From the IMG/VR virus record IMGVR_UViG_3300032087_004248, positions 1 through 21,413 of that record: DNA of 21,413 nt; one strand, 5' to 3'. Below the pieces are notes generated by a model. It made no database searches and was not told where the DNA came from. It worked only from the letters and a program-made list of their open reading frames with translations. The translations under genes and the position numbers were made by a program. Positions 711-21,413 of the stretch are shown here, piece by piece (position 1 is the stretch's first letter; each line of letters starts with the position of its first letter). The DNA is from a virus.

Positions 711-731
711 AGTTAAGATATTCTTTCAATT
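703..731. other. Probable left junction: plus-strand foreign segment meets T4-like core
   Basis: The methyltransferase reading frame loses similarity to its family at about 705-710. The stop of a complete minus-strand gene lies at 731-733, leaving about 20 bases between the two. Strand, gene type and operon direction all change here. No terminator lies between the converging genes, which is unusual for a real tail-to-tail boundary. I infer a recombination point or assembly join. Confidence 0.5.
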
Positions 732-1774
732 CATACATTACGAACACTCCATTTATAATATTCTATGAGATGAGTTAAAGTATCCATGAACTTTATATCA
801 TCTTTACGTGGTTCTATTTCTTTCATACCTTTTAGTGCATCATCAATTGATGACCTCCATGTATTACCTAGAATGTGACGTTCACTACCTTCTCGATCTA
901 AAAATGCCGCCTCACTATAATAATACAAATCACCGTTTGGATCAAGATATATTTTAGTTTGTGGTGATTGTTTTTTATCTAAATGTAAATAATCACATTT
1001 AATTAATTTACTTTTTCTTCCTCTTAGTAAATCATACATCGCATATCCATAATGAACTTTGACACCACGTTGTTTTGCTAATATATCAAATTCATTTAGA
1101 ATATCTTGAAACTTATTTCGATCATTTATTTCATACTGAAATGAAAAATCTTCTCTTAAACTTAATTCGTCTATACCACCAATGTCATCTATGTAATCTA
1201 AAATTTTTGCTATCTTTTCAACATTTTGTGGTAATACAACATAATTAAGTTTTACTTTTCTGTCTAATAATTTTAAATTGTTTTTAACTACCTGATAACC
1301 TTTTTTATTTCTAGATACTGAATTATACTCCTCTTCATCAATTCCATATAAAGATATTCTCAAAGTATCTAAATTTGCAACATAAGGATTCTTTTTTATG
1401 TAATTTTGTGTTAACATAAATCCATTTGTTATCATTCTTGATTTCATACCAACGTCATACAAGTCTTTACATATCTGATTCAAATATGGACTTGTCATGG
1501 GTTCAAGACCACCACCAATGTTTATTTGTCCTCTTCCTTTGTTTTGATATATGACATCTCTATAAACTTCATAATGTTTATCTTGTTTTTCAAATTTTGC
1601 ATCATAGTTTCGACCACAAAAAGTGCATTTGTACATGCAAGATATACCAGGTACAAAAACTATTGTGTGTGGATAGTGATATTCACCTTTTATGGCTGCG
1701 TCCATGTGTGATCCAAACTCTTTAATGGACTGTATTTGTTCCGTTGAAAAATTCTTTAACAAACTTCGCTCCAT
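731..1774 (-). CDS. Radical SAM protein
   Basis: This 347-residue protein has the radical SAM cluster motif CxxxCxxC at C46, C50 and C53 (SCMYKCTFCG), a Gly-rich SAM-binding strand (INIGGGLEP, ~95-103) and the barrel pattern that follows (MITNGFML, LRISLYGID, KLNYVVLPQN). These mark a [4Fe-4S]/SAM enzyme that generates a 5'-deoxyadenosyl radical. The substrate cannot be read. The C-terminal third (KIYLDPNGDLYYYSEAAF, then HILGN) resembles the tail of SPASM/twitch-type proteins but lacks extra cysteine clusters. The start overlaps the glycosyltransferase gene by 53 nt, so translational coupling is likely. A start at M24 would remove the overlap. It is the last gene of accessory block B, abutting the suspected left junction. 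Confidence 0.85.
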   Translation of the reverse strand: MERSLLKNFSTEQIQSIKEFGSHMDAAIKGEYHYPHTIVFVPGISCMYKCTFCGRNYDAKFEKQDKHYEVYRDVIYQNKGRGQINIGGGLEPMTSPYLNQICKDLYDVGMKSRMITNGFMLTQNYIKKNPYVANLDTLRISLYGIDEEEYNSVSRNKKGYQVVKNNLKLLDRKVKLNYVVLPQNVEKIAKILDYIDDIGGIDELSLREDFSFQYEINDRNKFQDILNEFDILAKQRGVKVHYGYAMYDLLRGRKSKLIKCDYLHLDKKQSPQTKIYLDPNGDLYYYSEAAFLDREGSERHILGNTWRSSIDDALKGMKEIEPRKDDIKFMDTLTHLIEYYKWSVRNV

Positions 1775-2765
1775 TCATATCAAAAGTGGTGGGTTTACAG
1801 TGAACAACTTTATAAATTGAATCTGTCAAAGAGTCAACTGTGACATCATCAATTGATATTACTTTCCCACCACCGAGTTGTTCATATCTTTTTGCTCTAT
1901 AATTTTCTTCTTTATCAATTACTACACCATTACTATCATATACATCATTTGATGTTAAGTCATTTGGGATCATAATCGCAGGTGTTTTTGTGATATTTAT
2001 ATCTAAAAATGACATCGCACCAAATTGACTTATCGATAATTCATGAGATGCAAGTAAAACTCTGTAACCATTTGTGTCTGGTCTTGATACAATATTTACA
2101 TTTTCTTTTTGTAATCTATCTAATAATTTATTTGGTGTTTTATCACCAACGATAAATGTCCAATCTCCACCAATTCTTTTCCTTACATCTAATGCCACAT
2201 TGTAATATTTTTCTATATGTGGATACCAATCACCACCAGAAACTAAATATCCATTTCTATGAGTATTATATTGAAATGGTTTAGTGACATATGAAGAACT
2301 AATTATTGGAACATCTATAATTTGATTATGTAAAAATTCTTTTGGATCAATAAAATTATTATCAGTATGAAAAATTATGCCGTCATAATATTCATTTAGT
2401 ATGTCACTATGAAACCAATTTTCACTTGGTCTAATCCATGGTATATCTCTCTCTAAAGAATATATCTTTTTGTTTTTTGCATGATCTAAGATATCCATGA
2501 TACCTTTGTGTCTTCTTAAATTTTTATTGAAATGTGAATGCCAACCATATCTTCCAAAAGGAAAACCCTCAGTAACAATCACGTCTGGGTTATACTCAAC
2601 ATATTTTACAAACAAGTCATTATGCCACTTATCAAAAAACTCAGTGTCGTGACCTAGAACAGGTTTTGTAATAATTAAATTTTCATTGATATGATCACAA
2701 AATGATTTTACTCTATTGATATGACCATACCCAGTATTACTCTGAACTAAAAATAATGTCTTCAT
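1722..2765 (-). CDS. GT-B-like glycosyltransferase
   Basis: The protein has about 347 residues from ATG 2765 (an upstream TTG at 2771 is less likely). The N-terminus KTLFLVQSNTGYGHINR fits the first beta strand and GxGH loop of GT-B glycosyltransferases (MurG/PseG/COG4671-like). A second nucleotide-sugar-binding half follows: SGGDWYPHI, then WTFIVGDKTPNKLL, and a late ELSISQFGAMSFLDI to PAIMIPND segment matching the donor-binding alpha/beta/alpha region. Donor and acceptor are unknown. It overlaps the DegT-like gene by 29 nt and the radical SAM gene downstream. This suggests that an amino-sugar-type product of the upstream enzyme, or a protein or LPS acceptor, is its substrate (inference). 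Confidence 0.65.
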   Translation of the reverse strand: MKTLFLVQSNTGYGHINRVKSFCDHINENLIITKPVLGHDTEFFDKWHNDLFVKYVEYNPDVIVTEGFPFGRYGWHSHFNKNLRRHKGIMDILDHAKNKKIYSLERDIPWIRPSENWFHSDILNEYYDGIIFHTDNNFIDPKEFLHNQIIDVPIISSSYVTKPFQYNTHRNGYLVSGGDWYPHIEKYYNVALDVRKRIGGDWTFIVGDKTPNKLLDRLQKENVNIVSRPDTNGYRVLLASHELSISQFGAMSFLDINITKTPAIMIPNDLTSNDVYDSNGVVIDKEENYRAKRYEQLGGGKVISIDDVTVDSLTDSIYKVVHCKPTTFDMNGAKFVKEFFNGTNTVH

Positions 2766-3360
2766 TACCAAATACCGTAGAGTATTGATTAACTGGTGTA
2801 TACCAATCCCAATTTTTCTCTATAGGTTTTTTATCTTTCACTTTCTCAAAATTTTGTAATCCTAAATTTGCTTTATCAGATGTCATGTAATAATGATAAC
2901 CCATGCCACACTTTTGTTTATTATATGGTGTATCACTTCTATTTCTACCATCATAAACTAATCTGATTAAGTCTTCATATTTATCTTTGTCATCCAATAA
3001 AATTATTCCACCTCTATCAGTCGATAAATGTTTACGTTTAAAAAAACTAAGACACATTAAAGTACCAGGTATGTATCCGTTTTTTTTCCAATAAACAGCT
3101 GCGTCTATAACTTGATCAGTTAGATAATGATAACCTTTCCACTTCTCATCAGTGAATGTAAACTGCCAACCATTTTTCATTAGCATGTAAGGAACTGAAA
3201 CGTAAGTATGCACAGGCACTTTAATATTTGCATAGTCTGTAATTCTGATAGAAAGTTCTAATGCATTCGTGCAACAATCCGTGGCAACTGCATATGGAGC
3301 ACCAAAAAAATCTGCTATTGTTTTTTCAAACTTATCTACTGATTCATATTCTTTGTTCAT
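2737..3360 (-). CDS. Minimal DegT/DnrJ/EryC1-type PLP aminotransferase-like protein
   Basis: This 207-residue protein follows the family's landmarks: the phosphate-cup segment AVATDCCTNALELS (25-38), the strand VPVHTYVSVPYMLMKNGWQF (equivalent to the pyTfvAT..ail..G region), DAA at 86-88, and SFFKRKHLSTDRGG (105-118) in which K110 aligns with the PLP-binding lysine. Normal sugar aminotransferases have about 370 residues. Here the linker before the DAA motif is nearly gone and the C-terminal domain is tiny. The start overlaps the gp44 stop (ATGA, 3357-3360). It occupies the place where T4 has gp62, the clamp-loader small subunit, and no gp62-like protein is in the window. Whether it is an active transaminase is uncertain. 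Confidence 0.7.
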   Translation of the reverse strand: MNKEYESVDKFEKTIADFFGAPYAVATDCCTNALELSIRITDYANIKVPVHTYVSVPYMLMKNGWQFTFTDEKWKGYHYLTDQVIDAAVYWKKNGYIPGTLMCLSFFKRKHLSTDRGGIILLDDKDKYEDLIRLVYDGRNRSDTPYNKQKCGMGYHYYMTSDKANLGLQNFEKVKDKKPIEKNWDWYTPVNQYSTVFGNEDIIFSSE

Positions 3361-4292: not shown

Positions 4293-4295
4293 AAC

Positions 4296-4973
4296 TTAAA
4301 CCTCATAAGTTGATTCAGGTTCAAGTGCAATCCAATATTCTACGTTATCTGTTTTTGATTTGAAATGACTTATATTTTTTGATGAGATAGACACATCATA
4401 TGAACCAGGTAATAGTTTTAAGTTTTCTACTTTGAAAAAGAACTGAAACTTAGCACCTTGTGAAGATTGATTTACTTCTAATGAAAAGTTATTTGCAGTA
4501 TCATTTTTCTTATCTTTGACAGTAAGAAAACTACCTTCATCATTCTTTTCAAAAACTAAATCAGGTGCTTGTATTACAGATGCAGCCTTTTTTAGTTGAT
4601 TTAAATCATCACTTGTTAGTTCAAATGTGACATCAACTGATGGCATCGTAATCATTTTACTTGGTGTTGTAATTACCGAAGGATCAGAGTAAAAGTATTT
4701 TAACTTTTGACCTTTACTATTCTCTTCTTTAATTGTTAGATGTTGATCATCAAAATCTATAATAGGTTGTTTGAACAAACTTGTAGATGATAAAAATTCA
4801 TTCAAATCATATATTGCTATTTGTTTAGGAAATGTCTCTTCAACATTTACTTTTGCCACAATGTTTTTCATCGCAGACATTGTTGTTATTGTACTACCTT
4901 CTTTAATCATTAAGTTCTGATTAATTGTTGCGAAGTTTTTTAGTACATTCAAAGTTCCACTATTTAGTTTCAT
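4296..4973 (-). CDS. gp45: DNA polymerase sliding clamp
   Basis: At 225 residues it is close to T4 gp45 (228). It starts MKLNSGTLNVLKNFATIN, the gp45 N-terminal helix pattern, and continues with alternating beta strands typical of the clamp fold (VTFELTSDDLNQLKKAASV at the second-domain start). The trimeric ring tethers the polymerase. In T4 it also activates late transcription with gp33 and gp55, relevant here because gp55 and late-promoter octamers are present. Its start overlaps the DUF3310 gene by 14 nt and gp44 follows 3 nt after the stop, preserving the T4 45-44 pair. Confidence 0.94.
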   Translation of the reverse strand: MKLNSGTLNVLKNFATINQNLMIKEGSTITTMSAMKNIVAKVNVEETFPKQIAIYDLNEFLSSTSLFKQPIIDFDDQHLTIKEENSKGQKLKYFYSDPSVITTPSKMITMPSVDVTFELTSDDLNQLKKAASVIQAPDLVFEKNDEGSFLTVKDKKNDTANNFSLEVNQSSQGAKFQFFFKVENLKLLPGSYDVSISSKNISHFKSKTDNVEYWIALEPESTYEV

Positions 4974-5274
4974 TATTTAACTCCATATCAAGATTGTATA
5001 GTGCAATCATACCATAATGCAAGATTTTAAGCAAGTCATTTCTGTTCTTACCATTTTTCTTTCCAAACCTCTGAGCGTATTTCATAATATTACCAATACA
5101 AAACCCCTCACCATGCCCACTGTCTAAAATAAATTGTGTTGATTGAAACTTATTTTTTGAATAGTGTTGTTTGTAAGTATTTAAAATGTAATCTTGCAAT
5201 TCCTTTAAATACTTGTCTTCATTGTAAGTATATACTTTTTTATCTACAATATCTTTATACGTAAACTCACTCAT
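4960..5274 (-). CDS. DUF3310-type small phage protein
   Basis: This 104-residue protein has the core GEGFCIGNIMKYAQRFGKKN (56-75) followed by NDLLKILHYGMIAL. This matches the DUF3310 signature (F.xGN..KY..R.GkK...DL.KA..Y), also found in the C-terminal part of T7 gp1.7, a nucleotide kinase. The kinase-specific part is not evident, so the biochemical role is open. Overlaps of 8 nt with the preceding gene and 14 nt with gp45 put it in the clamp/clamp-loader operon. Confidence 0.75.
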   Translation of the reverse strand: MSEFTYKDIVDKKVYTYNEDKYLKELQDYILNTYKQHYSKNKFQSTQFILDSGHGEGFCIGNIMKYAQRFGKKNGKNRNDLLKILHYGMIALYNLDMELNNETK

Positions 5275-5884
5275 TATCTTGTGCGATATACTTTCCGTTT
5301 ACTTCCATGTAATCTTTTACATTGTCTTCAATTATTTTAACATAACTTGGATATACAAGTAGTATGCCTCTTTCACTTTTTACTTTTTCAAAAGTATCAG
5401 GTCTTAATGGATGATCATCATACTTGTCACCCCACTGAAATACTGTTTCACCCTTATCATCAAAAGTCATTCTCATTTGAAATACTGAACCATCTGTGAT
5501 TGTTATATCTTGCAGTGGTGTATTATTTTCGTATAAATTAAAATCAATAATTGGTATTGCATCATGTTGATAATTATGTTTGATAAATGATTTAGCAATT
5601 GTATGTAATACATTTCCTAAATTTGTTTTGATATCCTCATTGCCAGGTTGAAACATGACACCTCTATTTTCCCATATCTCATTAACGATAGGTTCAGGTA
5701 TTTCTACACGCATGAAGTGAGCGGCAATCTTATTTCTTTGTGCTATTTTTAAACCTGCATTAGTATCATCATGTTCTTTATTTGTTTCTGAAATTTTTGT
5801 AAGTTTGTTAGATTCTTCTTCGTTTAAAGTTGCTTGACCACCGTCCTTTAAACCACCAGGTTGTAAATCAAATACTTTTGCCAT
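5267..5884 (-). CDS. Unknown phage protein at head of the gp45-gp44 operon
   Basis: This 205-residue soluble protein belongs to no family I can name. The first 60 residues are polar and probably disordered (FDLQPGGLKDGGQ, then LNEEESNKLTKISETN). A folded part follows (HFMRVEIPEPIVNEIWENRG, DITITDGSVFQMRM, GILLVYPSYVKIIEDNV). The segment GILLVYPSYV weakly recalls the last strand of phage 2OG-Fe(II) oxygenases (GxLvxFPSxLxH), but the metal-binding histidines are absent, so I do not make that call. The start is firm: AAGGAG at 5892-5897 lies 7 nt before ATG 5884. A promoter-like sequence overlaps the upstream terminator. Confidence 0.8.
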   Translation of the reverse strand: MAKVFDLQPGGLKDGGQATLNEEESNKLTKISETNKEHDDTNAGLKIAQRNKIAAHFMRVEIPEPIVNEIWENRGVMFQPGNEDIKTNLGNVLHTIAKSFIKHNYQHDAIPIIDFNLYENNTPLQDITITDGSVFQMRMTFDDKGETVFQWGDKYDDHPLRPDTFEKVKSERGILLVYPSYVKIIEDNVKDYMEVNGKYIAQDNE

Positions 5885-5903
5885 AATAAATCTCCTTGTA
5901 GAT

Positions 5904-5933
5904 AATATAAACTAAAAAGGGGGTTATTGTCAA
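5904..5933 (-). promoter_or_regulatory. Sigma70-like promoter of the gp45-gp44 operon
   Basis: The minus strand shows TTGACA (5933-5928), an 18-nt spacer and TATATT (5909-5904). A good ribosome-binding site (AAGGAG, 5897-5892) and ATG 5884 follow. The -35 box sits in the loop and descending arm of the terminator hairpin after hsp20. Confidence 0.55.
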
Positions 5934-5941
5934 CCCCCTTT
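5914..5941 (-). terminator. Rho-independent terminator after hsp20
   Basis: On the minus strand, AAAGGGGGTT pairs with AACCCCCTTT (arms 5941-5932 and 5925-5916) around a 6-nt loop, and the 3' arm runs into TTTTT before AG. It lies 11 nt past the hsp20 stop. A terminator is the natural reading, with a promoter -35 box embedded in it. Confidence 0.8.
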
Positions 5942-5951
5942 ATTAAAAAAA

Positions 5952-6374
5952 CTATTTAATCTCAATAGTCTTAGGTTTTTTACCCTCAGGCAATATCTTT
6001 TCTAATTCAATAGTCAAGAGTCCGTCTTTAAGTTCGGCACCATTTACTACCACATCATCTGCGATTGTAAATGATCTCTTGAAGTATCTCTTAGATATAC
6101 CTTTGTGGATAAATTTGTCTTCTTCCTCTTTGGTTTCTTTTTTGCTTTCGATTGTGAGAGTATTATCTGCATAATCGACTTGAATGTCGTCTTTACTAAA
6201 TCCAGCAACAGCCAACTCCACATTGTATTTGTAGTCATCTACTTTTACAATATCGTATGGTGGATATGAATTACTGAAAGTGTTTGATGTTGAAAGAGTT
6301 TCGAAAGTGTCAAATACTTCATCGAAACCAATTGTGAAAGGCCTAAGCCTATTAAAGAATGTTATGTCATTCAT
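5952..6374 (-). CDS. hsp20: Small heat-shock protein Hsp20 (IbpA-like)
   Basis: This 140-residue alpha-crystallin-domain holdase binds unfolded proteins. Seen are the domain start YPPYDIVKVDDYKYNVELAV with AGFSKDDI, the signature FIHKGISKRYFKRSFTI, the GLLTIELEK strand and the C-terminal I-x-I motif (KTIEIK). The ATG at 6374 is chosen because AAAAAGGAG lies 6 nt upstream. A TTG at 6395 in the same frame would place that ribosome-binding site inside the gene. Hsp20 is common in T4-like cyanophages. It has its own transcription unit: early and late promoter upstream, terminator downstream. Confidence 0.95.
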   Translation of the reverse strand: MNDITFFNRLRPFTIGFDEVFDTFETLSTSNTFSNSYPPYDIVKVDDYKYNVELAVAGFSKDDIQVDYADNTLTIESKKETKEEEDKFIHKGISKRYFKRSFTIADDVVVNGAELKDGLLTIELEKILPEGKKPKTIEIK

Positions 6375-6403
6375 AGTTTTCTCCTTTTTAAGCAAGTTAA
6401 TTT

Positions 6404-6424
6404 GAACACCCTTTCGGCATGTTC
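6404..6424 (-). promoter_or_regulatory. 5'-terminal hairpin of the hsp20 mRNA
   Basis: The minus-strand RNA GAACAUGCCGAAAGGGUGUUC folds with GAACA pairing UGUUC and a CC-GAAA-GG cap with one bulged base (GNRA tetraloop). It lies about where transcripts from the overlapping early/late promoter should begin, and 30 nt before the start codon. Likely roles are mRNA 5'-end protection or a structural leader. It does not cover the ribosome-binding site. Confidence 0.45.
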
Positions 6425-6428
6425 CGTA

Positions 6429-6460
6429 TATTTATATGGGAATTAACTTTCAAAAGTCAA
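6429..6460 (-). promoter_or_regulatory. Overlapping early and T4 late promoter of hsp20
   Basis: The minus strand has TTGACT (6460-6455), an 18-nt spacer and TATAAA (6436-6431). The same TATAAA is the first six bases of TATAAATA (6436-6429), the exact T4 late-promoter octamer read by gp55-RNA polymerase. The distance to the hsp20 ATG is 55 nt. So one -10 region can serve host sigma70 early and gp55 late (inference from motif identity and the presence of gp55 in the window). Confidence 0.65.
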
Positions 6461-6479
6461 CCCCCATACAAAACTTTTT

Positions 6480-7640
6480 TTATTCTTCATCGACCACTTC
6501 GTCTTGTTCGACTTCATTCTCTACGGCAGGGGCAGATACATCCACCCCAGCATCAATCTTTGAATAAAGATTTAAGAATGACTCTTTGGTGTCATCATCA
6601 AATCTTGCAACACAAAGGTCAATCGCTTTCACTTTGTCTTTGAAGATTGAATATGCCTTGACAACGTGATCAAGTCTTCTGGTAGAGATGATCTCATCAA
6701 CTCCACCTTCGTAAAAGGTTTTTCTAATAACCTCTGCCCAAGTCACTAAGTTTTCTGCAAACTTCTCATCGACTTTGCCATACTTATTCATAGAACCGAT
6801 GACAATCTTACTTTCAACTTTCTTGTCTGCATAAGGTTGCTCGATAGTGATTGCAAATCTTTCTAGAAATGCTTCGTTAAGAACATTAGTTCCGATAAAT
6901 CTACCGTCTTCAGAACCTTTACCTTTAGTGTTGGCAGTCGCCATCACATTGAATCCTTGTTTAGGTGTCACCCACTTGTTTACTTTTTTAAGATAAACAC
7001 CCTTGCCTTCTAAGACAGGTTGTAAACACATAAGTTTATTTGAACCTAAGTCGCACTCATCAAGTAAAAGAGTACAACCTCTTTCCATTGCATCGATAAC
7101 AGGCCCAGGTACAAACTTTGTCTCACCGTTAACAAGTCTGAAACCACCAAGTAAATCGTCTTCGTCTGTTTCAATAGTGATGTTAACTCTGATAAGTTCT
7201 TTCTTTAACTCAGCGTGAATCTGTTCGATCATCAAAGTTTTACCGTTACCAGATAGACCAGTAACAAATACTGGGTAGAACATACCAGATTTAGAAATCT
7301 GTTTGATAGTATTGTAATGACCCCAAGGAACAAAACCTTTGAACTTTGAAGGAACTAAGTTTTGAACTTCGAATGCATTAGCAATTAAATTTACTGAAGT
7401 CTGTTCAGGTGTCTGAACAGGTTGAATAGGTTTACTTACAACTTGAGTAACCTCTGATTCTTCGGTAGGTAACTGATACTTACCGTGACCACATTTGTAT
7501 TGTGGTTTCTTTAACCAAGAAGGATTGTTAAATCCATTCTTAGATGCGAACTCATTAATCTCAAATCTAGAGACTACGGCACCTTCGCCATATTCTTTAG
7601 ACATCGCATTAACGAACTCTTGTTTTTTAGGTGTTAACAT
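6480..7640 (-). CDS. cobS: CobS-like AAA+ ATPase (MoxR/cobaltochelatase type)
   Basis: This 386-residue AAA+ protein shows Walker A GLSGNGKT (128-135), a DDLLGGFRL helix-2-insert region (161-169), Walker B LLLDECD (191-197), sensor 1 ATANT (234-238) and the arginine-finger ERF (260-262). The C-terminus is very acidic. This matches CobS-like proteins widespread in marine T4-like phages. Classical CobS drives cobalt insertion with CobT and CobN. No CobN is present, so a MoxR/VWA remodelling role with the upstream CobT-like protein is equally possible. The start ATG 7640 has GAGAGG 8 nt upstream. Promoter at 7674-7703. Confidence 0.85.
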   Translation of the reverse strand: MLTPKKQEFVNAMSKEYGEGAVVSRFEINEFASKNGFNNPSWLKKPQYKCGHGKYQLPTEESEVTQVVSKPIQPVQTPEQTSVNLIANAFEVQNLVPSKFKGFVPWGHYNTIKQISKSGMFYPVFVTGLSGNGKTLMIEQIHAELKKELIRVNITIETDEDDLLGGFRLVNGETKFVPGPVIDAMERGCTLLLDECDLGSNKLMCLQPVLEGKGVYLKKVNKWVTPKQGFNVMATANTKGKGSEDGRFIGTNVLNEAFLERFAITIEQPYADKKVESKIVIGSMNKYGKVDEKFAENLVTWAEVIRKTFYEGGVDEIISTRRLDHVVKAYSIFKDKVKAIDLCVARFDDDTKESFLNLYSKIDAGVDVSAPAVENEVEQDEVVDEE

Positions 7641-7665
7641 AATATATACCTCTCTTTTTCAACAT
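7627..7665 (-). CDS. Possible 12-codon leader ORF before cobS
   Basis: The minus strand reads MLKKRGIYYVNT then TAA. It starts at ATG 7665, directly at the predicted transcript start (sequence TTAGATG shared with the CobT-like gene's leaderless start), and ends inside cobS, whose ATG lies 25 nt downstream in another frame. The cobS ribosome-binding site lies inside it. It may be a real uORF or the remnant of a duplicated promoter/start. Confidence 0.25.
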   Translation of the reverse strand: MLKKRGIYYVNT

Positions 7666-7673
7666 CTAATTAT

Positions 7674-7703
7674 ATAATATCAGGTAATCTGATATATTGT
7701 CAA
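7674..7703 (-). promoter_or_regulatory. Promoter of cobS with inverted repeat in the spacer
   Basis: On the minus strand TTGACA (7703-7698), an 18-nt spacer and TATTAT (7679-7674), with TG one base before it (extended -10). The spacer contains a perfect 7-bp inverted repeat, ATATCAG-n5-CTGATAT (7677-7695), an operator-like element. A second palindrome, GCCTAA-A-TTAGGC, spans the upstream stop codon beside the -35. Confidence 0.6.
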
Positions 7704-7711
7704 GGCCTAAT

Positions 7712-9952
7712 TTAGGCAACTTTTTCAATGAATTTATTCAATAATTGTCTATTCAAAGTCTTTTTCTGAGCAAATTTTAAGAACTCTCTTGCCATTCCAG
7801 CCGCTCTTGCACCCTTTTTGAATGTCAATTCTTGTTCTTCATCGGTCTCTTTTGGACCTCTTGGTAATATGTAATACTCATCAAATCCAGCGACTTTTGA
7901 TATCGCAACTTTCTTCTCTCTTAATTCTTTTTGTACCGCAACAATCTTTTCTTTATCACTATACTCACTTAATCCAAATTTTCTACAAATATCTCTAAGA
8001 GGCACTCTACCTTGTTTACCAGTGCCCGATACATAGAAACCTGTTATTGAAATATTAGGCAACTGAAGTCTCACAAATTTTAAGAAAGACTCAGTTTGAT
8101 AGGTTTTAAGTTGAGTTTGAACTTTAGTATCTGAACACTGAATATATAAGTCTTTACCAAAATCATTATGATTTAATTGTTTACTAAGTTTATTGTGTTC
8201 ACTATTTCTCCAAAAACTTGATCTTTGTGAAAATACACTTTCATGATGATGACTCTCACCATCAGTTAGGATAACCATATTTAATTTTTGTACTTTGTGT
8301 TTCTCTTGAAATCTTTTAACGACTCTGTATGTAGTTAATAAAGCAGTGTTTAATGGTGTACCACCAAGATTGTATTTTCTAGGAACATAAGTAGAATATA
8401 TATGATTTGCGTCATATATATTAGTATCACGTGCCCATTCCTTAGTGAAACCTAATAAATTAGTCATCATTGTTTGAGTCTGTTGTTTTGTTTGATCACT
8501 TGAAAAAAATTCAAGTAAACGTAAATATTGAAAGTTATGATCACCAACAACTTCATCTTGAATCTCATTGAGTGAACTTGTATGAATACGATCTGTAAAT
8601 GCAAGAACTTGATAAGGTATCTTTACTCTCTGACAAAACCAAATTAGATTGAATAACTGTATCAAAGTAAATCTCATGTTATCTGCCATTGAACCAGACC
8701 AATCAAGATACATGATCATACCATGATTAGTCGCTCCAGGCAAAGTAGTCATTTTTGCAAATAAGTCTTCGTCAAATTTATAGTTGTGTAATTTAGTCAT
8801 ATCAAGAGAACCAGTCTTGGAAGTAGATGCTCTTTTGTATTGATCAGCAGACTTTTTCATTTCAAACTCTTTGACCATATATTGAACAACTTTTTTGTTA
8901 TCATTAAAAACTTTTTTATAGTCTTCATGTATGTAAGCATCAAATGCCTCATTATGTTTATTTGTATATGTTTCTATCAAATCGTCAGCAATCTCTTTGT
9001 GAGAATAGATTAATTTATTTAAGTTTAATTTTTTAGGTGTTTGAGTATAGATTCTATCTTTTGCATCAGTATCATTGTTTTTGTTCATGGCATCTTGATA
9101 TGCTTTATCAGTAGATGATTTAAGCTCGCCACCATTTCCTAGACCTGCACCTTGTGATCCTACATCGTTTGAATCATCTTTTGACTCTTCCTCACCACTA
9201 TCAGACTCAGATGCACCCTCATCAATTTTTTCTTCAGACTCAGATGCACCCTCATCAATTTTTTCTTCAGACTCTTCTGAACCCTCTGAACTTTGAACTT
9301 GTTCTTGACCTTCACTTGACTCTGATTGATCTGATTGAGATTGACTACCAGTTTCTTCTTGTTCTTGATTGCCTGACTGATCTTGTCGACCATCACCATC
9401 TTGATCTTTTTGTTGTTCTTTGTGATACTGAGATAATCTTGCGGCAAGTGATATTACGTCTTCAACACTTTTTAAAGTATCAACTTCGTCAATAAATTTT
9501 TGTTCTTCTTCATTTACATTACCAATAAGACCAGTTTTGTAAAAGATATTAATCTTATCAATAATATTTAATTTAGATAAATCTTTATCTTTTAATTTGA
9601 AGAAGTCACCTTCTACTAATTCTTTGTAACCTTGTTTGAAATTTTTTACTGAACCAGGGTATTTCTTTTGAAACATTTTCTCAATACGAGCATCCTCTAA
9701 AACATTGATAACAGAATGATTAATACCTTGATGAACACCTCTCTCTAATAAATCCATAGGTGTATATAATGCATGACCAACTTCATGACAAACAAACATG
9801 TCATAAACATCATTACTAATTTCTTCTTTGAATATAGGTAAAACTAACTCTCTTGTTTCAACATTAAATGAAGCAGTATCTGCTTTTTTATGTCTAACAA
9901 TAATATTCTCTTCAGAGAGAAGTTTCGCAATTGTGGATTTTTTAGTCATCAT
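7712..9952 (-). CDS. CobT-like protein: HExxH metallopeptidase-like domain plus VWA domain
   Basis: The protein has 746 residues. The N-terminal zinc-binding motif is VCHEVGHALY (H56, E57, H60), followed by NVLEDARIEK (83-92), whose acid could be a third ligand. Residues ~180-265 are an acidic Ser/Glu/Gln-rich linker with an 11-residue tandem repeat. The C-terminal VWA domain has MIDAS DWSGS (417-421), a later GGTPLNTAL threonine motif and VILTDGES. VWA plus acidic linker is the CobT layout, and pairing with CobS is conserved in marine phages, but an intact HExxH suggests peptidase-like metal binding. The ATG lies right at the predicted transcript start and has no ribosome-binding site. Confidence 0.8.
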   Translation of the reverse strand: MMTKKSTIAKLLSEENIIVRHKKADTASFNVETRELVLPIFKEEISNDVYDMFVCHEVGHALYTPMDLLERGVHQGINHSVINVLEDARIEKMFQKKYPGSVKNFKQGYKELVEGDFFKLKDKDLSKLNIIDKINIFYKTGLIGNVNEEEQKFIDEVDTLKSVEDVISLAARLSQYHKEQQKDQDGDGRQDQSGNQEQEETGSQSQSDQSESSEGQEQVQSSEGSEESEEKIDEGASESEEKIDEGASESDSGEEESKDDSNDVGSQGAGLGNGGELKSSTDKAYQDAMNKNNDTDAKDRIYTQTPKKLNLNKLIYSHKEIADDLIETYTNKHNEAFDAYIHEDYKKVFNDNKKVVQYMVKEFEMKKSADQYKRASTSKTGSLDMTKLHNYKFDEDLFAKMTTLPGATNHGMIMYLDWSGSMADNMRFTLIQLFNLIWFCQRVKIPYQVLAFTDRIHTSSLNEIQDEVVGDHNFQYLRLLEFFSSDQTKQQTQTMMTNLLGFTKEWARDTNIYDANHIYSTYVPRKYNLGGTPLNTALLTTYRVVKRFQEKHKVQKLNMVILTDGESHHHESVFSQRSSFWRNSEHNKLSKQLNHNDFGKDLYIQCSDTKVQTQLKTYQTESFLKFVRLQLPNISITGFYVSGTGKQGRVPLRDICRKFGLSEYSDKEKIVAVQKELREKKVAISKVAGFDEYYILPRGPKETDEEQELTFKKGARAAGMAREFLKFAQKKTLNRQLLNKFIEKVA
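9204..9269 (-). repeat. 33-bp perfect tandem duplication in the acidic linker
   Basis: Two identical 33-bp units (9204-9236 and 9237-9269) encode EEKIDEGASES twice in the CobT-like protein. Perfect DNA identity indicates a recent duplication or an unstable slippage site. The frame is kept. Confidence 0.9.
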
Positions 9953-10048: not shown

Positions 10049-10822
10049 TCAACTTGTCACACCATATATAAGTTCCATGATATTTTTATGAGTTTCTTCA
10101 TTAGGATGAGCATCAAAATGACTTACTTCTTTCCACATATTTTTCTTATCAAGATGTCTCATTAGATTCTTACCTCCAATATGTTCAAATATAGGCCAAC
10201 CCCAAAAAGTGTCATCCATTTCAAGTAATAATGGATTTGATAACATACTCTTTACAAAAGCCATTTGATATAAGTTAGTTCTCTCATCATCATTAAATAT
10301 TCCATTTATCGGATAAAACATTTGAAACATACTGAGTTTAATATTTCTTTCTTTGCATATGCATTGTAGTGAATAGAAATGATTTAAATTTTCATCAACA
10401 ATCTGACTTGGTGTCGGATAATCAAAATTAAAAGCGTTCATATAAAAATCAAACAAAACTTCTTGATCAACAACTTTTACAAAGTTTGCACGATCTTTTG
10501 TATCAGGTTTTCTTGGTATAACTGAATGCCAACCATCTTTATTACGACCTTCTTTCACTAAAAAATCTTGTCTAGTCCATTCAGACCAACCTATGATAAC
10601 TTGCTCTACGTCATCATGTTTTATTATTTCATTCAAAACTGTTTGATAAATTCTACGATTACCTGATCCACACTTTGCAGTGTTAATAACTTCTTTGCCT
10701 GTTTTCTTTGCTAACTGTTCAGGCCAACTTGGAAACGGATTAATTTTAGGTTTTGTTTTTATTGAAAAATCTTTATCTGTAAAACTACATCCACCGACAA
10801 TAATCTTAGAAGACTTTGACAT
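10049..10822 (-). CDS. SGNH/GDSL-like hydrolase
   Basis: This 257-residue protein resembles SGNH hydrolases in three places. GGCSFTD (10-16) supplies the nucleophile S13 in block I. NTAKCGSGNRRIYQ matches the Gly block II region. HFDAHPNEETH near the C-terminus has the D-x-H pair of block V. IIGWSEWTRQDF replaces the usual block III strand. Such proteins occur in marine phage genomes and are often esterases or acetyl transferases acting on glycans. The activity here is inferred. It has no signal peptide. It overlaps the carbamoyltransferase by 17 nt and is the last gene of accessory block A. Confidence 0.6.
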   Translation of the reverse strand: MSKSSKIIVGGCSFTDKDFSIKTKPKINPFPSWPEQLAKKTGKEVINTAKCGSGNRRIYQTVLNEIIKHDDVEQVIIGWSEWTRQDFLVKEGRNKDGWHSVIPRKPDTKDRANFVKVVDQEVLFDFYMNAFNFDYPTPSQIVDENLNHFYSLQCICKERNIKLSMFQMFYPINGIFNDDERTNLYQMAFVKSMLSNPLLLEMDDTFWGWPIFEHIGGKNLMRHLDKKNMWKEVSHFDAHPNEETHKNIMELIYGVTS

Positions 10823-12122
10823 TATATTCTTTCTGAAAATCTATTGCATCATCCCATGTATTAACTATAGGTTGACCTTTTATATTCAAGGATGTATTCA
10901 ATAACATAGGACACCCTGTTTTTTCATACCATTCTTCCAATATAAGGCGGGCTACAGACGGATTTGATCTTTCTACGACTTGTACACGGGCAGTGCCATC
11001 AACATGCGTAACAGACTTATAATCATGTAGTGCTTTTGATACAAATTGCATATATCTATTCTTTCTTCCTTTGAAATATTTGTCAAAGTGTTCTTCTAAT
11101 ATCATGGGTGCAAAAGGACGATATTTTTGTCGTCTTTTAATTTGATTTATTGTGTCTTTTATAGGATATCTAGGATCAGCAATTAGTGAACGATTTCCTA
11201 ATGCTCTTGGTCCAAACTCAGCACGTCCATTTGCAATCCCACAATATTTGTGTTCTAATAAATGTCTAACAACTTCTTTTGGATTTATAGTTCTATCAAT
11301 GTTATGGCCGAGATATGGATGTTTCCAATTTAATCTTACTTTATTAATCAATGCAGCCGCACCAAGAGAAGAACCTGCATCACCTGGTGATGGCATTATC
11401 CATATATTATATCGATCTGGTATCTTACTGTTTGCAACACAATTTAAAGCACATCCACCCATTAATATCAAATTATTTTTTGTCGTATATTTCAACAGTT
11501 CTAAAAGTTTTGATTCATAAAGATTTTGAATCGATGCGGCCAAATCTTCATCACGTGCATTCGGTAACAAATTTCCTACACCCCAATGATTGTTCTTTTG
11601 CAAAAGATATTCTAAATCATATTTAGGTTCACCATATGCAGCCATTCCCATTGTGATATATTCATCCTCGTTTGGTTTCAAACCAAGTCTATGCGTAATT
11701 GCTGAATATAATAATCCTAATGAATATGGATATTTAAATGACTTAATTTTTTTCATATTATCCCATATCGAAACAGTATCCCATTCACCAATAGCATCTA
11801 CAACAATAATATTGCAATTATGAAATGGTGCAGTAAAATATCCTGCCGCAGCATGTGATTGATGATGTTTAAAATAGTAGTCATATTTTCTTCTTGGCCA
11901 TTGGAGTGATTGATTTGCATAAAATCTTCTAGTGTTTTTCCAAAATGGTTTTTCGTAATATGCGATATTGTGATAACCTATTTTCATTTGTTTTGGATGA
12001 ATCCATTTATCACCTTTCTTTCTACTATATCTTTCACTATGAGATGCGTATTTAATTTCTTGTCCGTCTAATACAGTTACGCCTGCATCATGAAATCCTT
12101 CTGATATTCCTAAATTAACCAT
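10806..12122 (-). CDS. NodU/CmcH-family O-carbamoyltransferase
   Basis: The protein has 438 residues. The N-terminal half has the Kae1/TsaD-like features of the family: GISEGFHDAG (5-14), KHHQSHAAAG with conserved histidines, VDAIGEWDT and MGGCALNCVAN. The C-terminal half has GRAEFGPRALGNRSL and PMLLNTSLNIKGQPIV. Known members move carbamoyl from carbamoyl phosphate through carbamoyl-adenylate to a hydroxyl on a sugar or antibiotic. It is shorter than bacterial members (~550-600). The 8-nt overlap with the radical SAM gene and 17-nt overlap with the SGNH gene indicate co-translation. The acceptor is not readable: a phage or host glycan, or a radical-SAM product, are possible. Confidence 0.9.
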   Translation of the reverse strand: MVNLGISEGFHDAGVTVLDGQEIKYASHSERYSRKKGDKWIHPKQMKIGYHNIAYYEKPFWKNTRRFYANQSLQWPRRKYDYYFKHHQSHAAAGYFTAPFHNCNIIVVDAIGEWDTVSIWDNMKKIKSFKYPYSLGLLYSAITHRLGLKPNEDEYITMGMAAYGEPKYDLEYLLQKNNHWGVGNLLPNARDEDLAASIQNLYESKLLELLKYTTKNNLILMGGCALNCVANSKIPDRYNIWIMPSPGDAGSSLGAAALINKVRLNWKHPYLGHNIDRTINPKEVVRHLLEHKYCGIANGRAEFGPRALGNRSLIADPRYPIKDTINQIKRRQKYRPFAPMILEEHFDKYFKGRKNRYMQFVSKALHDYKSVTHVDGTARVQVVERSNPSVARLILEEWYEKTGCPMLLNTSLNIKGQPIVNTWDDAIDFQKEYNVKVF

Positions 12123-13056
12123 TCCATTTTTCCAACATCCAATTTTTTATTTGTGTTTCAACCAAATACTCAAATCTTTTCCAATTATGATTTTTATTTG
12201 GATATGTATTAACTTGTTTATGTAAAGTAAGATATACATCCTCAATCATATCAACAGGCATATGTTGTATTGAAAGATGTTTTGGATATCTTACAGTGTT
12301 GTATCCTAAATATACATTATTTTCATTACAGAAGTCAACAAAATCTTTCATCTGAAACCAATTATTTGTCATTGGATTTACCATAACTGCAATATCGCAA
12401 TATTGTTTAAATATCTGAAAATTTTCCATAACATTATTAAAGTCACCATTCACTCTAATTTGATCATATAAATCTTTTGTTAAAGCATCAATACTAATAT
12501 TTAATCTTATATTTTTCTTTTTAATATAATCTTTTACTCTTTTGTTTAATATGCTTCCGTTAGTTGCAATATTAATTTTAGTATCATCAGTGACACGATC
12601 TATAATATCAAAAACTATTTTCTGAGCAAAAGGTTCACCTCCATTAAATCTAATCTCATCTAAATGTGGTAACAACTCTTCTACCTCATCGACAAATTTA
12701 TTTGTATATGCCATAGGCATTGGTGCAAGACCTTTATTTTTTCTAATACCAGAAGACAATCTTTCATTACACATAATACATTCAAAGTTACATTGATTTG
12801 ATAATTCAAGTTCTATCATACTAGGATATTTTTTCACTACATTGTCTTTATACGCATCTGCAATAGTGAAGTCTTTATGTAAACTACAACATTTGTTTCT
12901 ATACTTATCAAAATGTTCCCCAAACCAAATATCTTTAAGTGATCTAGTTTCAGACCATTGATCACAATTACCAATAGTCAACCAACAAGGCGAAACAAAA
13001 CCTTCCACTGAACAATACATATTTGTATGAGGTGCTTTACATAAATTACTATTCAT
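12115..13056 (-). CDS. Radical SAM protein with N-terminal SPASM/twitch-like Cys domain
   Basis: The protein has 313 residues. An N-terminal Cys-rich module comes first (CKAPHTNMYCSVEGFVSPCW at 6-25, later RSLKDIWFGEHFDKYRNKCC), the pattern of an auxiliary Fe-S-binding twitch domain. Then comes the radical SAM core: SNQCNFECIMC (C89, C93, C96), RFNGGEPF, and NIATNGSIL / LNISIDAL. Such twitch-first architecture is seen in radical SAM enzymes of glycan or peptide modification clusters. The substrate is unknown. The start overlaps the SPASM-like ORF by 8 nt (GGATGAATAG) and the end overlaps the carbamoyltransferase start. Confidence 0.85.
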   Translation of the reverse strand: MNSNLCKAPHTNMYCSVEGFVSPCWLTIGNCDQWSETRSLKDIWFGEHFDKYRNKCCSLHKDFTIADAYKDNVVKKYPSMIELELSNQCNFECIMCNERLSSGIRKNKGLAPMPMAYTNKFVDEVEELLPHLDEIRFNGGEPFAQKIVFDIIDRVTDDTKINIATNGSILNKRVKDYIKKKNIRLNISIDALTKDLYDQIRVNGDFNNVMENFQIFKQYCDIAVMVNPMTNNWFQMKDFVDFCNENNVYLGYNTVRYPKHLSIQHMPVDMIEDVYLTLHKQVNTYPNKNHNWKRFEYLVETQIKNWMLEKWNG

Positions 13057-13381
13057 CCTTTTTATCTACTGTGCAGTGTTCAATACATTGAACTAACGCA
13101 GTATCTTCACTCTCCCATGATTTAGGTAATGTTTCTGTGAACCATTTATCGTTTAGTATTTCTTCTAATGATCTATTATTAATATTAAATTTTTCTTTAT
13201 TATCGTTATACTTATCCCAAATGTGTTGAGTATGTTCATCTTTATGCTCTTTATGTGTTAAATTTGACTTGAAACCTAAAAGAAATTTATAATGTGGATT
13301 ACAAAGATAACAACATGGATAAACTTGACCATCTGGGTTTATTTGAACTCTACCTTCTTTTTTCCACTCACACTCTATCAT
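13049..13381 (-). CDS. Stand-alone SPASM-like Cys-rich protein (partner or split half of radical SAM)
   Basis: From ATG 13381 the product has 110 residues starting MIECEWKKEGRVQINPDGQ then VYPCCYLCN. This is the SPASM pattern (C..., dG.v.pCC) that binds an auxiliary Fe-S cluster and normally follows the radical SAM barrel in one chain. A later SLEEILNDKWF segment is the usual nsL.eIwn motif, and CIEHC lies near the end. An ATG at 13411 is possible but overlaps the upstream gene by 44 nt. The upstream ORF ends at 13368 in the neighbouring frame, exactly where a fused SPASM domain would continue. So this is either a genuinely split enzyme or a frameshift. Confidence 0.65.
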   Translation of the reverse strand: MIECEWKKEGRVQINPDGQVYPCCYLCNPHYKFLLGFKSNLTHKEHKDEHTQHIWDKYNDNKEKFNINNRSLEEILNDKWFTETLPKSWESEDTALVQCIEHCTVDKKDE

Positions 13382-14099
13382 TGAAATCTTTCTTTGGTCT
13401 ACAAATATCACAACTGCAACTCCAAGTTGTTACAGGAAGTTTTTTGTAAGATTTTTCTAAAAATTGTTTTTCGCCATTTTCATCCACATAATGAAACTTA
13501 TCTTCCTCATCAAATATTCTATTTGAATGAACAAACTCACAAAAAAATGCACCATGAGATTTATTTTGTTTTTCTATTTCTTCAATGTAATCTTCATTAT
13601 GTTTGAAAACAACTGTAAATGTTTTTGCTTTTGCAAACGTTGATGTTAATGTTTCCATATTGTTAAGTATCTTTTGCAGGTTAGTTTTTCTTCTATATTG
13701 TTGATGCATCTCTTGTGTTATGCCATCAATATCAAAAATAACCTCAAGTCTGTTTCCACACATAACTCCAAGATTCCACCACCAAGTTTCATCTCGTATA
13801 GAACCGTTTGTTAGTATTTCTATTTTACAATCTGAATTGTCTATTATATATTTACAGATTTCAAATATATCTTTTGCCATGATTGGATCGCCCCAAATAC
13901 CACAGAACTCAATAATATTAATATTTTTAAATGTTGGAAATGCTCTTTTGAAGTCATCAAGTGACCAAGACGTTAGTGGCAACCAATCAACTGTATTCAA
14001 CCCATTAGGATTAGTGCGATGACATTGAGGACAACCTGCATTACAAAAGTTTGTAATACCAATTGAAACCTCATTTATCTTCGTAGATGAAAGTGTCAT
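13368..14099 (-). CDS. Radical SAM protein lacking its own SPASM domain
   Basis: The protein has 243 residues. The cluster motif is CNAGCPQC (C19, C23, C26). FCGIWGDPIMAKDIFEI is the Gly-rich SAM region, and EILTNGSIRDE and LEVIFDIDGI are barrel strands. The chain ends with WSCSCDICRPKKDF, a Cys cluster at the place where a C-terminal SPASM domain should begin, then stops at TGA 13370-13368. The downstream overlapping ORF supplies a SPASM-like domain in another frame. It is the first gene of accessory block A, preceded by an 84-nt AT-rich spacer. Confidence 0.82.
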   Translation of the reverse strand: MTLSSTKINEVSIGITNFCNAGCPQCHRTNPNGLNTVDWLPLTSWSLDDFKRAFPTFKNINIIEFCGIWGDPIMAKDIFEICKYIIDNSDCKIEILTNGSIRDETWWWNLGVMCGNRLEVIFDIDGITQEMHQQYRRKTNLQKILNNMETLTSTFAKAKTFTVVFKHNEDYIEEIEKQNKSHGAFFCEFVHSNRIFDEEDKFHYVDENGEKQFLEKSYKKLPVTTWSCSCDICRPKKDFNDRV

Positions 14100-14183
14100 G
14101 TTTTTCTTTTTTCTTAAATCTTTTTAAGAATGTATTCCAATACAATAAAATATATAATTTTATTTTTTTAATTTTTTTATGTA
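14100..14183 (-). promoter_or_regulatory. AT-rich spacer with inverted repeats between gp46 and block A
   Basis: About 16% G+C by my count. It holds an 8-bp inverted repeat TTCTTAAA-TCTT-TTTAAGAA (14111-14130), a 6-bp one TGTATT-CC-AATACA (14131-14144), and a T-rich stretch. No clear -35/-10 pair or classical terminator is visible. It may be the control region or boundary of the inserted gene block. Confidence 0.35.
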
Positions 14184-15893
14184 TCATGATGCTATCCTAC
14201 TAAAGTTTTGTGTCTTTTCAAACTTGATACTATTTCTAAATTTATCTACAAGTTGATCACCTTTGTGACTTATTACGAATACATTTTCATTATCAAGTGT
14301 ATTTAATATTCTTAAAAATTCATCTGTTCCTTGACCATCAAGTGAACTGTCAAATATCTCATCAAGTATTAAAAGATTTGTATTTGTAGAATTTTTCATC
14401 TTTGCAATCGCTCTCCATGTAAAAAGTAAAGCAAGATCAATACGCATTTTTTCACCTTCACTAAATGACGCATAATTAAACGCATCTCTAAATCTTGATC
14501 TAATAGTTTCATTAAAGTTTTCATCTAGATTAAAGTTTACATAAAACTCCATAGACATTAAATACTTATTAATTAATTGATTCATAATTGGCAGATATTG
14601 TTTGATGATTTTTGTTTTGATACCTGCATCATCTAACATATCTCTGGCTGCGTGTACGTAAGTTCTCTCTTCTTTCTTTGTACTTCTAGTATTCTCGATA
14701 CCCTTGCATTCATCTTTCATATTTGATAATTTATCAATGTCTGTCTCTGATACTGAACCTGCCTCAAATGATGCAATCTCATCTTCTAGTTTTTTATTAT
14801 ATTTTTCTAATTCTGTAATCGATGATGATAACTCTGCTCTTCTAACTTCATTATCACGAACTTTTGTCATTATATCATTGATCTCATTCAATCTATTTTC
14901 AACATCTGTTAATTCATCTTTAAGTTTAGTTGCGCCATCAACTATTTCTTTTATTTTATTTTCTTTATCTGTTAACATTGATTGTTTGTGTGAAGACTCT
15001 ATATCTTGTAAACATACTGGGCAGTTATCATTATTCTTAAAAAAATCTGCATCTTTTGTTAACTGTTTATGTTTTTCAATCAGTGTAGCCCTAAGATTAT
15101 TAAACTTTTGTAGTTTATTTTTTACGATATCTTGATCATCTACTTGTTTCATCAAGTCAATACTTTCATCACCAATAAAATCAAACTCTTCAGTTCTTTC
15201 ATCTAAAACAGTTTTATTATTTTTATGTGTGACTTGTTTATCTGATATGATTTGTTCTTTATTTGCTTTCATATCATCAATGTAATTTTGTTGCATTGCA
15301 ATCTTTTCTACTGCAAGTTCAAACTGATAATCCAACTCTTTTATTTCATCTGCGATATCTTTTATCTTTTGTTTTAGTAACATACCCATGATAGAAAATA
15401 TTTTTATGTCAAGTATCTCTTCAACAACTTCTCTACGATGAGATGCTTTGAGTTGCATAAAAGGAACAAACGTAGATGATCCTAAAATGACAACTTGTGT
15501 AAATGATCTATAATTTAATCTTAAAACATTTTGTTCTAAAAATTTTTGATAATCTCTTGAGTTTGCATCTTGATTAATTAAAATATTATCACAATATATC
15601 TCAAAAGTATTTGGTCTAATACCTCTTACGATCTTCCATTCTTTAGTTCCTATACTAAACTCAACTTCAACAACTGTCTCTCTATCATTAATAGAATTTA
15701 CTAATTGTGATTTACTAATCACTCTAAAAGGTTTTCCAAATAGTGAAAAACATAGTGCATCTAATATTGTTGATTTGCCTGCACCGTTTTCGCCAACGAT
15801 AAGTGTTGTCGCATTTTTATCTAAAGGTATCTCTGTGAATTGATTACCAGTAGAAAGAAAATTTTTCCAACGCACAGTTTTAAAATTAATCAT
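14184..15893 (-). CDS. gp46: Recombination endonuclease subunit, Rad50-like
   Basis: At 569 residues (T4 gp46 has 560) it is a SMC-like ATPase that works with gp47 in DNA end resection for recombination-dependent replication. Seen are Walker A GENGAGKST (34-42), long coiled-coil arms on both sides of a zinc-hook CPVC (291-294), then the ABC signature region FSEGEKMRIDLAL and Walker B LLILDEIFD near the C-terminus. The start overlaps the gp47 stop by 4 nt (ATGA). Confidence 0.96.
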   Translation of the reverse strand: MINFKTVRWKNFLSTGNQFTEIPLDKNATTLIVGENGAGKSTILDALCFSLFGKPFRVISKSQLVNSINDRETVVEVEFSIGTKEWKIVRGIRPNTFEIYCDNILINQDANSRDYQKFLEQNVLRLNYRSFTQVVILGSSTFVPFMQLKASHRREVVEEILDIKIFSIMGMLLKQKIKDIADEIKELDYQFELAVEKIAMQQNYIDDMKANKEQIISDKQVTHKNNKTVLDERTEEFDFIGDESIDLMKQVDDQDIVKNKLQKFNNLRATLIEKHKQLTKDADFFKNNDNCPVCLQDIESSHKQSMLTDKENKIKEIVDGATKLKDELTDVENRLNEINDIMTKVRDNEVRRAELSSSITELEKYNKKLEDEIASFEAGSVSETDIDKLSNMKDECKGIENTRSTKKEERTYVHAARDMLDDAGIKTKIIKQYLPIMNQLINKYLMSMEFYVNFNLDENFNETIRSRFRDAFNYASFSEGEKMRIDLALLFTWRAIAKMKNSTNTNLLILDEIFDSSLDGQGTDEFLRILNTLDNENVFVISHKGDQLVDKFRNSIKFEKTQNFSRIAS

Positions 15894-21367: not shown

Positions 21368-21413
21368 TTTTTTCTAATTCACTTTTAATTTGCCTTTGCC
21401 CTACACTAATCAA
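21348..21413 (-). CDS. C-terminal end of an unknown protein (continues past right edge)
   Basis: An open minus-strand frame from the window edge reads ISVGQRQIKSELEKNDKPIL and stops at TAA 21350-21348, overlapping the primase-like start by 20 nt. It looks coding (Lys/Glu-rich amphipathic end), but it is too short to assign. Confidence 0.4.
   Translation of the reverse strand: MISVGQRQIKSELEKNDKPIL

Follow-up and report, generated by a model that had tools for sequence, protein, structure and literature searches.

A conserved carbamoyltransferase–SGNH hydrolase pair in an exchangeable, putative sugar-tailoring cassette of marine T4-like phages

In T4-like marine phages of the pelagimyophage group, a hypervariable region termed the host recognition cluster (HRC) combines tail fibers and lipopolysaccharide (LPS)-type sugar genes with glycosyltransferases and radical SAM cassettes, and O-chain modification has been proposed for it (Zaragoza-Solas et al. 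2020, PMC7029224). Here, we analyzed a block of five genes in a single virus contig of 21,413 bases (IMG/VR record IMGVR_UViG_3300032087_004248; the whole contig is called the window). The block encodes two radical SAM proteins (rSAM1 and rSAM2), a separate SPASM protein, an O-carbamoyltransferase (CT), and an SGNH hydrolase of the DUF6071 type. The layout of the HRC is common to about half of the relatives that carry a CT–SGNH pair. The HRC sits between the VrlC baseplate gene and the neck gene gp14, whereas the window cassette lies between gp46 and a CobT-like gene; gp46 is not named, and neither a CT–DUF6071 core nor a split between radical SAM and SPASM is described, in the accessible text of the HRC paper (PMC7029224). 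A first-pass annotation had put the block forward as a candidate for an undescribed system. This was right in part: HRC cassettes, the setting in hypervariable phage regions, and cyanophage carbamoyltransferases (PMC3037559) are already published, whereas the CT–DUF6071 core, the slot between gp46 and CobT, and the split appear to be new within the literature searched, which left most subscription journals outside its scope and contained nothing on DUF6071 or on cyanophages that pair a CT with radical SAM.

The CT shares its two Pfam domains and active-site motifs with the O-carbamoyltransferases of the NodU/CmcH/TobZ type (TobZ, NovN, and GdmN), from which it differs in length, with 438 amino acids versus about 570–700 and a partly missing N-terminal domain. 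The substrates of the nearest solved CTs are sugars or polyketides. The 5-hydroxymethylcytosine (5hmC) carbamoyltransferases, which are phage-encoded members of the same superfamily, co-occur with thymidylate-synthase homologues and diverge at TobZ W408, G421, and R423 (Yang et al. 2021, PMC8670742); the window CT has neither the thymidylate-synthase association nor the ALCNTT signature of these enzymes. A role in pyrimidine synthesis, claimed for a cyanophage carbamoyltransferase (PMC9146016), was rejected for the window CT, which matches O-carbamoyltransferase domains and not those of the aspartate/ornithine type.

The conserved CT–SGNH core and its genomic settings

CT homologues of 80 viral loci were retrieved, and 83 loci with a near full-length CT were reduced to 51 non-redundant loci at 95% identity. 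An SGNH-family gene was found no more than 6 kb from the CT in 46 of the 51 loci and directly downstream of it, usually overlapping, in 37. Because of these frequencies, CT and SGNH are regarded as the conserved core of the cassette. A radical SAM gene was present within 6 kb of the CT in 28 of the 51 loci; rSAM1 and SPASM constitute an optional second module, and rSAM2, which the closest relatives share with a few more distant loci, is a rare accessory gene. The five genes had been annotated as one set, which this distribution does not bear out. The co-conservation search that the first-pass annotation had called for returned CT and SGNH together in dozens of marine myoviruses; CT homologues of SAR11 cells were found in surface-polysaccharide islands.

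Nearly all genes of the window are on the minus strand, and the order of transcription is gp46, rSAM1, SPASM, rSAM2, CT, SGNH, a 96-nt gap, and CobT (Table 1). The five open reading frames (ORFs) annotated as an overlapping run between gp46 and CobT were all present and intact, with successive overlaps of 14, 8, 8, and 17 nt, as computed with the SPASM gene taken from its ATG at 13381 and not from the GTG that extends it to 13411. The domain labels assigned to them also stood, since the curated Pfam cut-offs were passed by Radical_SAM (twice), SPASM, Carbam_trans_N, Carbam_trans_C, and DUF6071. The block recurred with 99.95% identity in an independent 42-kb contig. In a hydrophobicity scan, none of the cassette products had a strongly hydrophobic segment resembling a transmembrane helix, and the enzymes therefore look cytosolic. 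The gp46 protein was 58% identical to that of Methylophilales phage Melnitz and 51% identical to that of Pelagibacter phage HTVC008M; on the basis of these identities, the source phage is classed as a marine T4-like myovirus akin to pelagimyophages and cyanomyophages.

Table 1. Positions of the cassette, its borders, and a second gene slot in the window.
Feature	Position	Strand	Evidence and remarks
gp46, recombination endonuclease subunit	14184..15893	-	Upstream border of slot, conserved
Micro-gene, 38 aa, MIHKKIKKIKLYILLYWNTFLKRFKKKEKHDTFIYEDK	14071..14187	-	ATG 14187, stop 14071; gp46 side of slot
rSAM1, radical SAM core protein, 243 aa	13368..14099	-	Pfam Radical_SAM 42.9 bits (cut-off 29.5)
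Stand-alone SPASM/twitch-type auxiliary-cluster protein, about 110 aa	13049..13381	-	Pfam SPASM 32.1 bits (cut-off 21.5)
rSAM2, radical SAM with SPASM-like stretch N-terminal of core, 313 aa	12115..13056	-	Radical_SAM 50.1 bits; accessory
CT, short-form O-carbamoyltransferase, 438 aa	10806..12122	-	Pfam, motifs; conserved cassette core
SGNH hydrolase, DUF6071 type, 257 aa	10049..10822	-	DUF6071 33.8 bits (cut-off 27); second half of core pair
CobT-like VWA protein	7712..9952	-	Downstream border of slot; position conserved in long contigs
Second slot, beside gp44	731..3360	-	Pfam; exchangeable
Mini-DegT aminotransferase, 207 aa, unusually short, Lys-containing motif kept	2737..3360	-	
GT28-like glycosyltransferase	1722..2771	-	Pfam
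DesII-like radical SAM	731..1774	-	Motif CMYKCTFC; DesII match E 2.8e-38

The CT matched Carbam_trans_N with 129.6 bits (cut-off 24) and Carbam_trans_C with 164.2 bits (cut-off 27), and resembled the solved enzymes NovN, GdmN, and TobZ. It retained the motifs HHxxH, GGxAxN, and EFGPRALGNRS, and H86, H87, H90, and the GPRA.GNRS residues were invariant across 22 sequences. By these sequence criteria, it is a member of the NodU/TobZ/NovN superfamily with intact motifs; it may O-carbamoylate a sugar-type hydroxyl. It falls into a clade (96/95) of short CTs, nearly all from phages, that is separate from the long CTs of SAR11; its closest cellular relatives include CTs from Streptomyces and Plantactinospora.

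In the SGNH protein, S13 and H239 were invariant and D237 was at least 90% conserved among relatives. Sequence profiles matched GDSL/SGNH entries weakly. The AlphaFold2 model (predicted local distance difference test score, pLDDT, 89.3) matched TesA, acetyl-xylan esterase, and PatB, a peptidoglycan O-acetyltransferase, in Foldseek searches with E values of 7e-6 to 4e-4. The model thus has an SGNH fold with Ser and DxH(P) catalytic residues, and the protein is predicted to be an esterase or an acyltransferase, two activities that share this fold and these residues. The model was also matched, over about 208 columns, by BFVD entry A0A6J5LTW5, a protein of 602 aa from an uncultured phage that bears the name Radical_SAM, hinting at a fusion of SGNH and radical SAM domains.

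The core occupied two genomic settings. In 41 loci (niche A), it was located between gp46 and CobT or in an equivalent slot. In 34 loci, about half of the relatives (niche B), it was located in the tail region, in the order DUF4815 protein, c14 (large and tail-fiber-like), c5, c9, CT, SGNH, c13, c8, c16 (with an Asp/Asn hydroxylase domain), radical SAM genes, c17, c18, and neck genes. The element TATAAATA, which is the T4 late-promoter core, occurred in 11 of 28 niche-B loci 25–28 nt upstream of c9, the gene preceding CT, and in eight of eight before c32, a head-tail adaptor gene. In niche A, it never preceded rSAM1 (0/31), CT (0/40), SGNH (0/50), or gp46 (0/34), and the window contained three such sites in total, a number not above chance, none of them upstream of the cassette. 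Owing to this difference, the same core may be expressed late in one niche and together with replication genes in the other. Of 16 niche-A loci, 14 had the element, located at 6429–6436 in the window, before the Hsp20 gene, which suggests that Hsp20 is a late gene in this phage group.

Radical SAM module and allele replacement

The CxxxCxxC motif of rSAM1 reads CNAGCPQC from residue 19, with C19, C23, and C26 invariant across 20 relatives, and rSAM1 was 46–58% identical in relatives of the gp46 niche. In the SPASM piece, C4, G18-x4-C23, C24, and C99-x3-C103 were invariant in 14 sequences, a motif that fits the Cys pattern of an auxiliary Fe–S cluster. The CxxxCxxC core and the C-x(n)-G-x4-C and CxxxC elements are common to known SPASM/twitch radical SAM enzymes; in these enzymes, however, the auxiliary domain is C-terminal in the same polypeptide, whereas it is a separate ORF in the window. 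Core and SPASM were consecutive ORFs in the window and most relatives, and they were adjacent at every locus having a SPASM ORF plus upstream sequence. Fusion into one chain was found in the more distant relatives L036, L029, L052, and L079. The split recurred in many relatives with overlaps of 4, 14, 35, 44, 52, and other lengths, and because these fall in two different relative frames, both a sequencing error and one programmed frameshift were rejected as explanations. None of the curated functional families searched matched rSAM1 or SPASM above its cut-off. From the sequence data, we infer that rSAM1 provides the catalytic half of a radical SAM enzyme split from its SPASM domain. It is conceivable, but in our judgment unlikely, that rSAM1 and the SPASM polypeptide form an obligate two-component enzyme with the auxiliary Fe–S cluster supplied in trans and that, with CT and the DUF6071 SGNH protein, they yield a sugar, carbamoylated and edited by radical chemistry, that no organism is known to make and that is exchanged among ocean phages like serotype alleles.

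The cluster motif of rSAM2 is CNFECIMC at residue 89, and its N-terminus gave a weak SPASM match (23.7 bits, cut-off 21.5). Against NCBIfam N_Twi_rSAM (NF033640), rSAM2 scored 134.8 bits, below the cut-off of 170. Prokaryotic viperin (pVip) was rejected for rSAM2 and for the DesII-like protein of the second slot, which scored 42.4 and 52.2 bits, respectively, versus a cut-off of 180, and the matches of PADLOC to viperin and other defense genes were confined to the common radical SAM core.

Synonymous divergence (dS) between the window and contig G023 was 0.36, 0.09, and 0.04 for the flanking genes gp46, CobT, and CobS, respectively, versus 1.03, 1.10, 1.13, and 1.25 for CT, SGNH, SPASM, and rSAM1 of the cassette, respectively. 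With dS near 1, these cassette alleles are saturated. In the comparison with locus L006, dS was 0.04–0.06 from gp46 to gp55, 0.26 for rSAM2, and 0.80 for CT. The ratio of nonsynonymous to synonymous divergence (dN/dS) was below 1 in every gene compared, indicating that the cassette genes are functional; the degradation in all relatives that the first-pass annotation had considered was not found, the genes being intact. A homologous exchange in which functional alleles replace each other between conserved borders is the simplest account of these values, and a swapped cassette between near-constant flanks is as expected of surface-recognition genes. The slot is plastic, and relatives hold DNA methylases, deformylase-like genes, or nothing in it.

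Candidate function and rival explanations

The block is tentatively interpreted, with a little less than an even chance in our estimation, as a sugar-tailoring cassette that marine T4-like myoviruses exchange and that most likely targets a glycan of the host surface. The presumed substrate, reaction order, complex formation, and final target would be as follows. With ATP and carbamoyl phosphate, CT would O-carbamoylate a nucleotide- or lipid-linked sugar at a hydroxyl group in the cytosol of infected cells, and the SGNH enzyme would add an acyl ester to the same glycan or remove one from it. Together with the separate SPASM/twitch polypeptide, which would carry the auxiliary Fe–S cluster, rSAM1 would, alongside rSAM2, catalyze a radical oxidation, epimerization, or deoxygenation of the sugar. 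The product would most likely enter the host surface polysaccharide and alter the epitope serving as phage receptor, resulting in superinfection exclusion or serotype conversion.

The gene neighborhoods are of glycan type. In niche A, c23 encodes a UDP-Glc/GDP-Man dehydrogenase; c13 has weak GT8 matches; the second slot of the window holds DegT, GT28-like, and DesII-like genes; and a 108-kb contig (NZGL01000008.1) carries within 17 kb a CT, a DesII-like fusion, rSAM1, rSAM2, an epimerase, an aminotransferase, and two genes starting with the SGNH-type motifs GCSFS and GCSFT. The CT homologues of SAR11, which fall outside the short-CT clade at about 30% identity, have as neighbors GDP-mannose dehydratase, NeuB, cytidylyltransferase, GT2, GT4, and O-antigen-ligase-type (Wzy_C) genes, which places these cellular CTs, as judged from their gene content, in surface-polysaccharide islands. 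The 108-kb contig is labeled as a Gammaproteobacteria metagenome-assembled genome (MAG); because it contains the capsid gene gp23, it is assigned to a T4-like phage, and the MAG bin holds phage sequence.

Several observations weigh against this interpretation. The glycosyltransferase evidence for c13 is weak: its product, one homologue of which is annotated as a glycosyltransferase in phage C48C1, matched Pfam GT8 weakly (best E 0.006, in two of 14 members), and a profile search of c13 against the PDB gave no match. The candidate glycosyltransferase c20 of relatives was rejected, as it had no relevant Pfam match, a model pLDDT of 62, and no significant fold match. The phage loci examined contained no recognizable flippase, ligase, or undecaprenyl-phosphate glycosyltransferase dedicated to such a pathway. 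Finally, the T4-type late promoter ahead of the tail-niche operon fits decoration of the virion at least as well.

Such decoration, in which the sugar chemistry would glycosylate phage tail fibers or the capsid for protection or for tuning of receptor binding, is the main rival, although we consider it rather unlikely. It is consistent with the apparently cytosolic enzymes, an Asp/Asn beta-hydroxylase-type gene near CT–SGNH, and the tail niche, where the pair directly follows the structural genes c14, c5, and c9 ahead of the neck genes and the late-promoter element precedes c9 and c32 at the frequencies given above. The niche of the window, however, has no such element at the cassette, and the block there extends an operon of replication genes; the location of the SAR11 homologues in cell-surface islands also argues for the host glycan. 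A looser account, in which unrelated host-derived genes were collected as ordinary metabolic cargo in a tolerant intergenic slot without a coherent pathway, would suit the plasticity of the slot, where rSAM1 and rSAM2 come and go. It is improbable, given that CT and SGNH stay paired at two unrelated genome locations and that rSAM1 and SPASM never separate where their adjacency can be read.

The first-pass annotation had named a natural-product pathway alongside surface modification. The latter gained from the glycan-type neighbors and the SAR11 islands, whereas the former was left with a thin lead from Streptomyces. A small-molecule or peptide product, antibiotic-like or a ribosomally synthesized and post-translationally modified peptide (RiPP) with the 38-aa micro-protein as possible precursor, is accordingly given a slight probability. 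The CTs of Streptomyces and Plantactinospora are among the nearest cellular ones, and a locus of Streptomyces samsunensis (4038–9461) combines a phage-like short-clade CT with a radical SAM gene and a DUF6071 gene (E 2.9e-82 for the latter), possibly a natural-product tailoring set; no DUF6071 gene, however, was present in 17 kb around the Plantactinospora CT, and no transporter, peptidase, or self-resistance gene was recognized. A short conserved peptide gene directly upstream of rSAM1–SPASM would suit a RiPP, but the micro-protein is equally conserved where the slot has no radical SAM gene (L021 and L024–L026) and contains neither Cys nor an obvious core. Hypermodification of DNA or RNA bases, in which CT would add a carbamoyl group to the hydroxymethylated cytosine of phage DNA, with base editing by the radical SAM enzymes, has precedent in the experimentally known phage-type 5hmC carbamoyltransferase (PMC8670742) and DNA-replication genes beside the cassette, but is the least probable explanation, as a thymidylate-synthase homologue (PF00303) was found in 0 of 32 CT-bearing records (one complete genome of 156 kb, the others fragments) and the window CT has the sugar-type ALGNRS in place of ALCNTT, the comparison covering two of the three diagnostic positions (TobZ G421 and R423). 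This evidence is strong but not final, because most of the 32 records are fragments.

Neighboring features and biological meaning

The region between gp46 and rSAM1 had been described as an AT-rich inverted-repeat spacer. The inverted repeats are present, including an 8-nt hairpin (fold z -2.65), whereas the spacer is not non-coding but consists mostly of the 38-codon micro-gene, which overlaps the gp46 stop by 4 nt; the weak hairpins thus sit inside coding sequence. Homologues of 38–64 codons with the motif KLYILLYWNTFL...DVFIYE follow gp46 in many relatives. In the comparison with L018, 11 of 14 differences were at third codon positions and dN/dS was 0.05, and the micro-gene is judged from this pattern to be under purifying selection. 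A regulatory RNA or terminator was rejected for the spacer, which had no Rfam match, a modest fold, and a coding sequence.

The second slot is probably of the same kind as the gp46–CobT slot. Its mini-DegT, GT28-like, and DesII-like set was also found in contigs G020 and G006, and G023 carried a c13 (GT8-like) gene instead. The DesII-like protein aligned over about 290 aa with DesII (dTDP-4-amino-4,6-dideoxy-D-glucose ammonia-lyase), and its DegT-type neighbor recalls the DesI/DesII pair; its N-terminus is, however, shorter than that of DesII, and the DegT partner has just 207 aa. Against the DesII equivalog (TIGR04426), it scored 174.4 bits, below the cut-off of 450. The CobT-like protein matched an NCBIfam cobaltochelatase model weakly. 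In the 42-kb contig G001, positions 687–21101 of the window were matched at 99.95% identity, and 1–686 and 21102–21413 were unmatched; bases about 450–700 were similar to flavobacterial phage DNA methyltransferase genes on the opposite strand. Both window ends are probably assembly chimeras.

How abundant ocean phages rewrite or wear surface sugars is an open question, and their hosts are hard to manipulate genetically. The cassette provides a small, defined, and conserved enzyme pair, CT and the DUF6071 SGNH protein, for assay. The natural split between core and SPASM would allow the role of the auxiliary cluster to be tested by mixing subunits, and from the swapping of alleles between near-identical phages, the cassette is predicted to be a marker of recognition type in wild populations.

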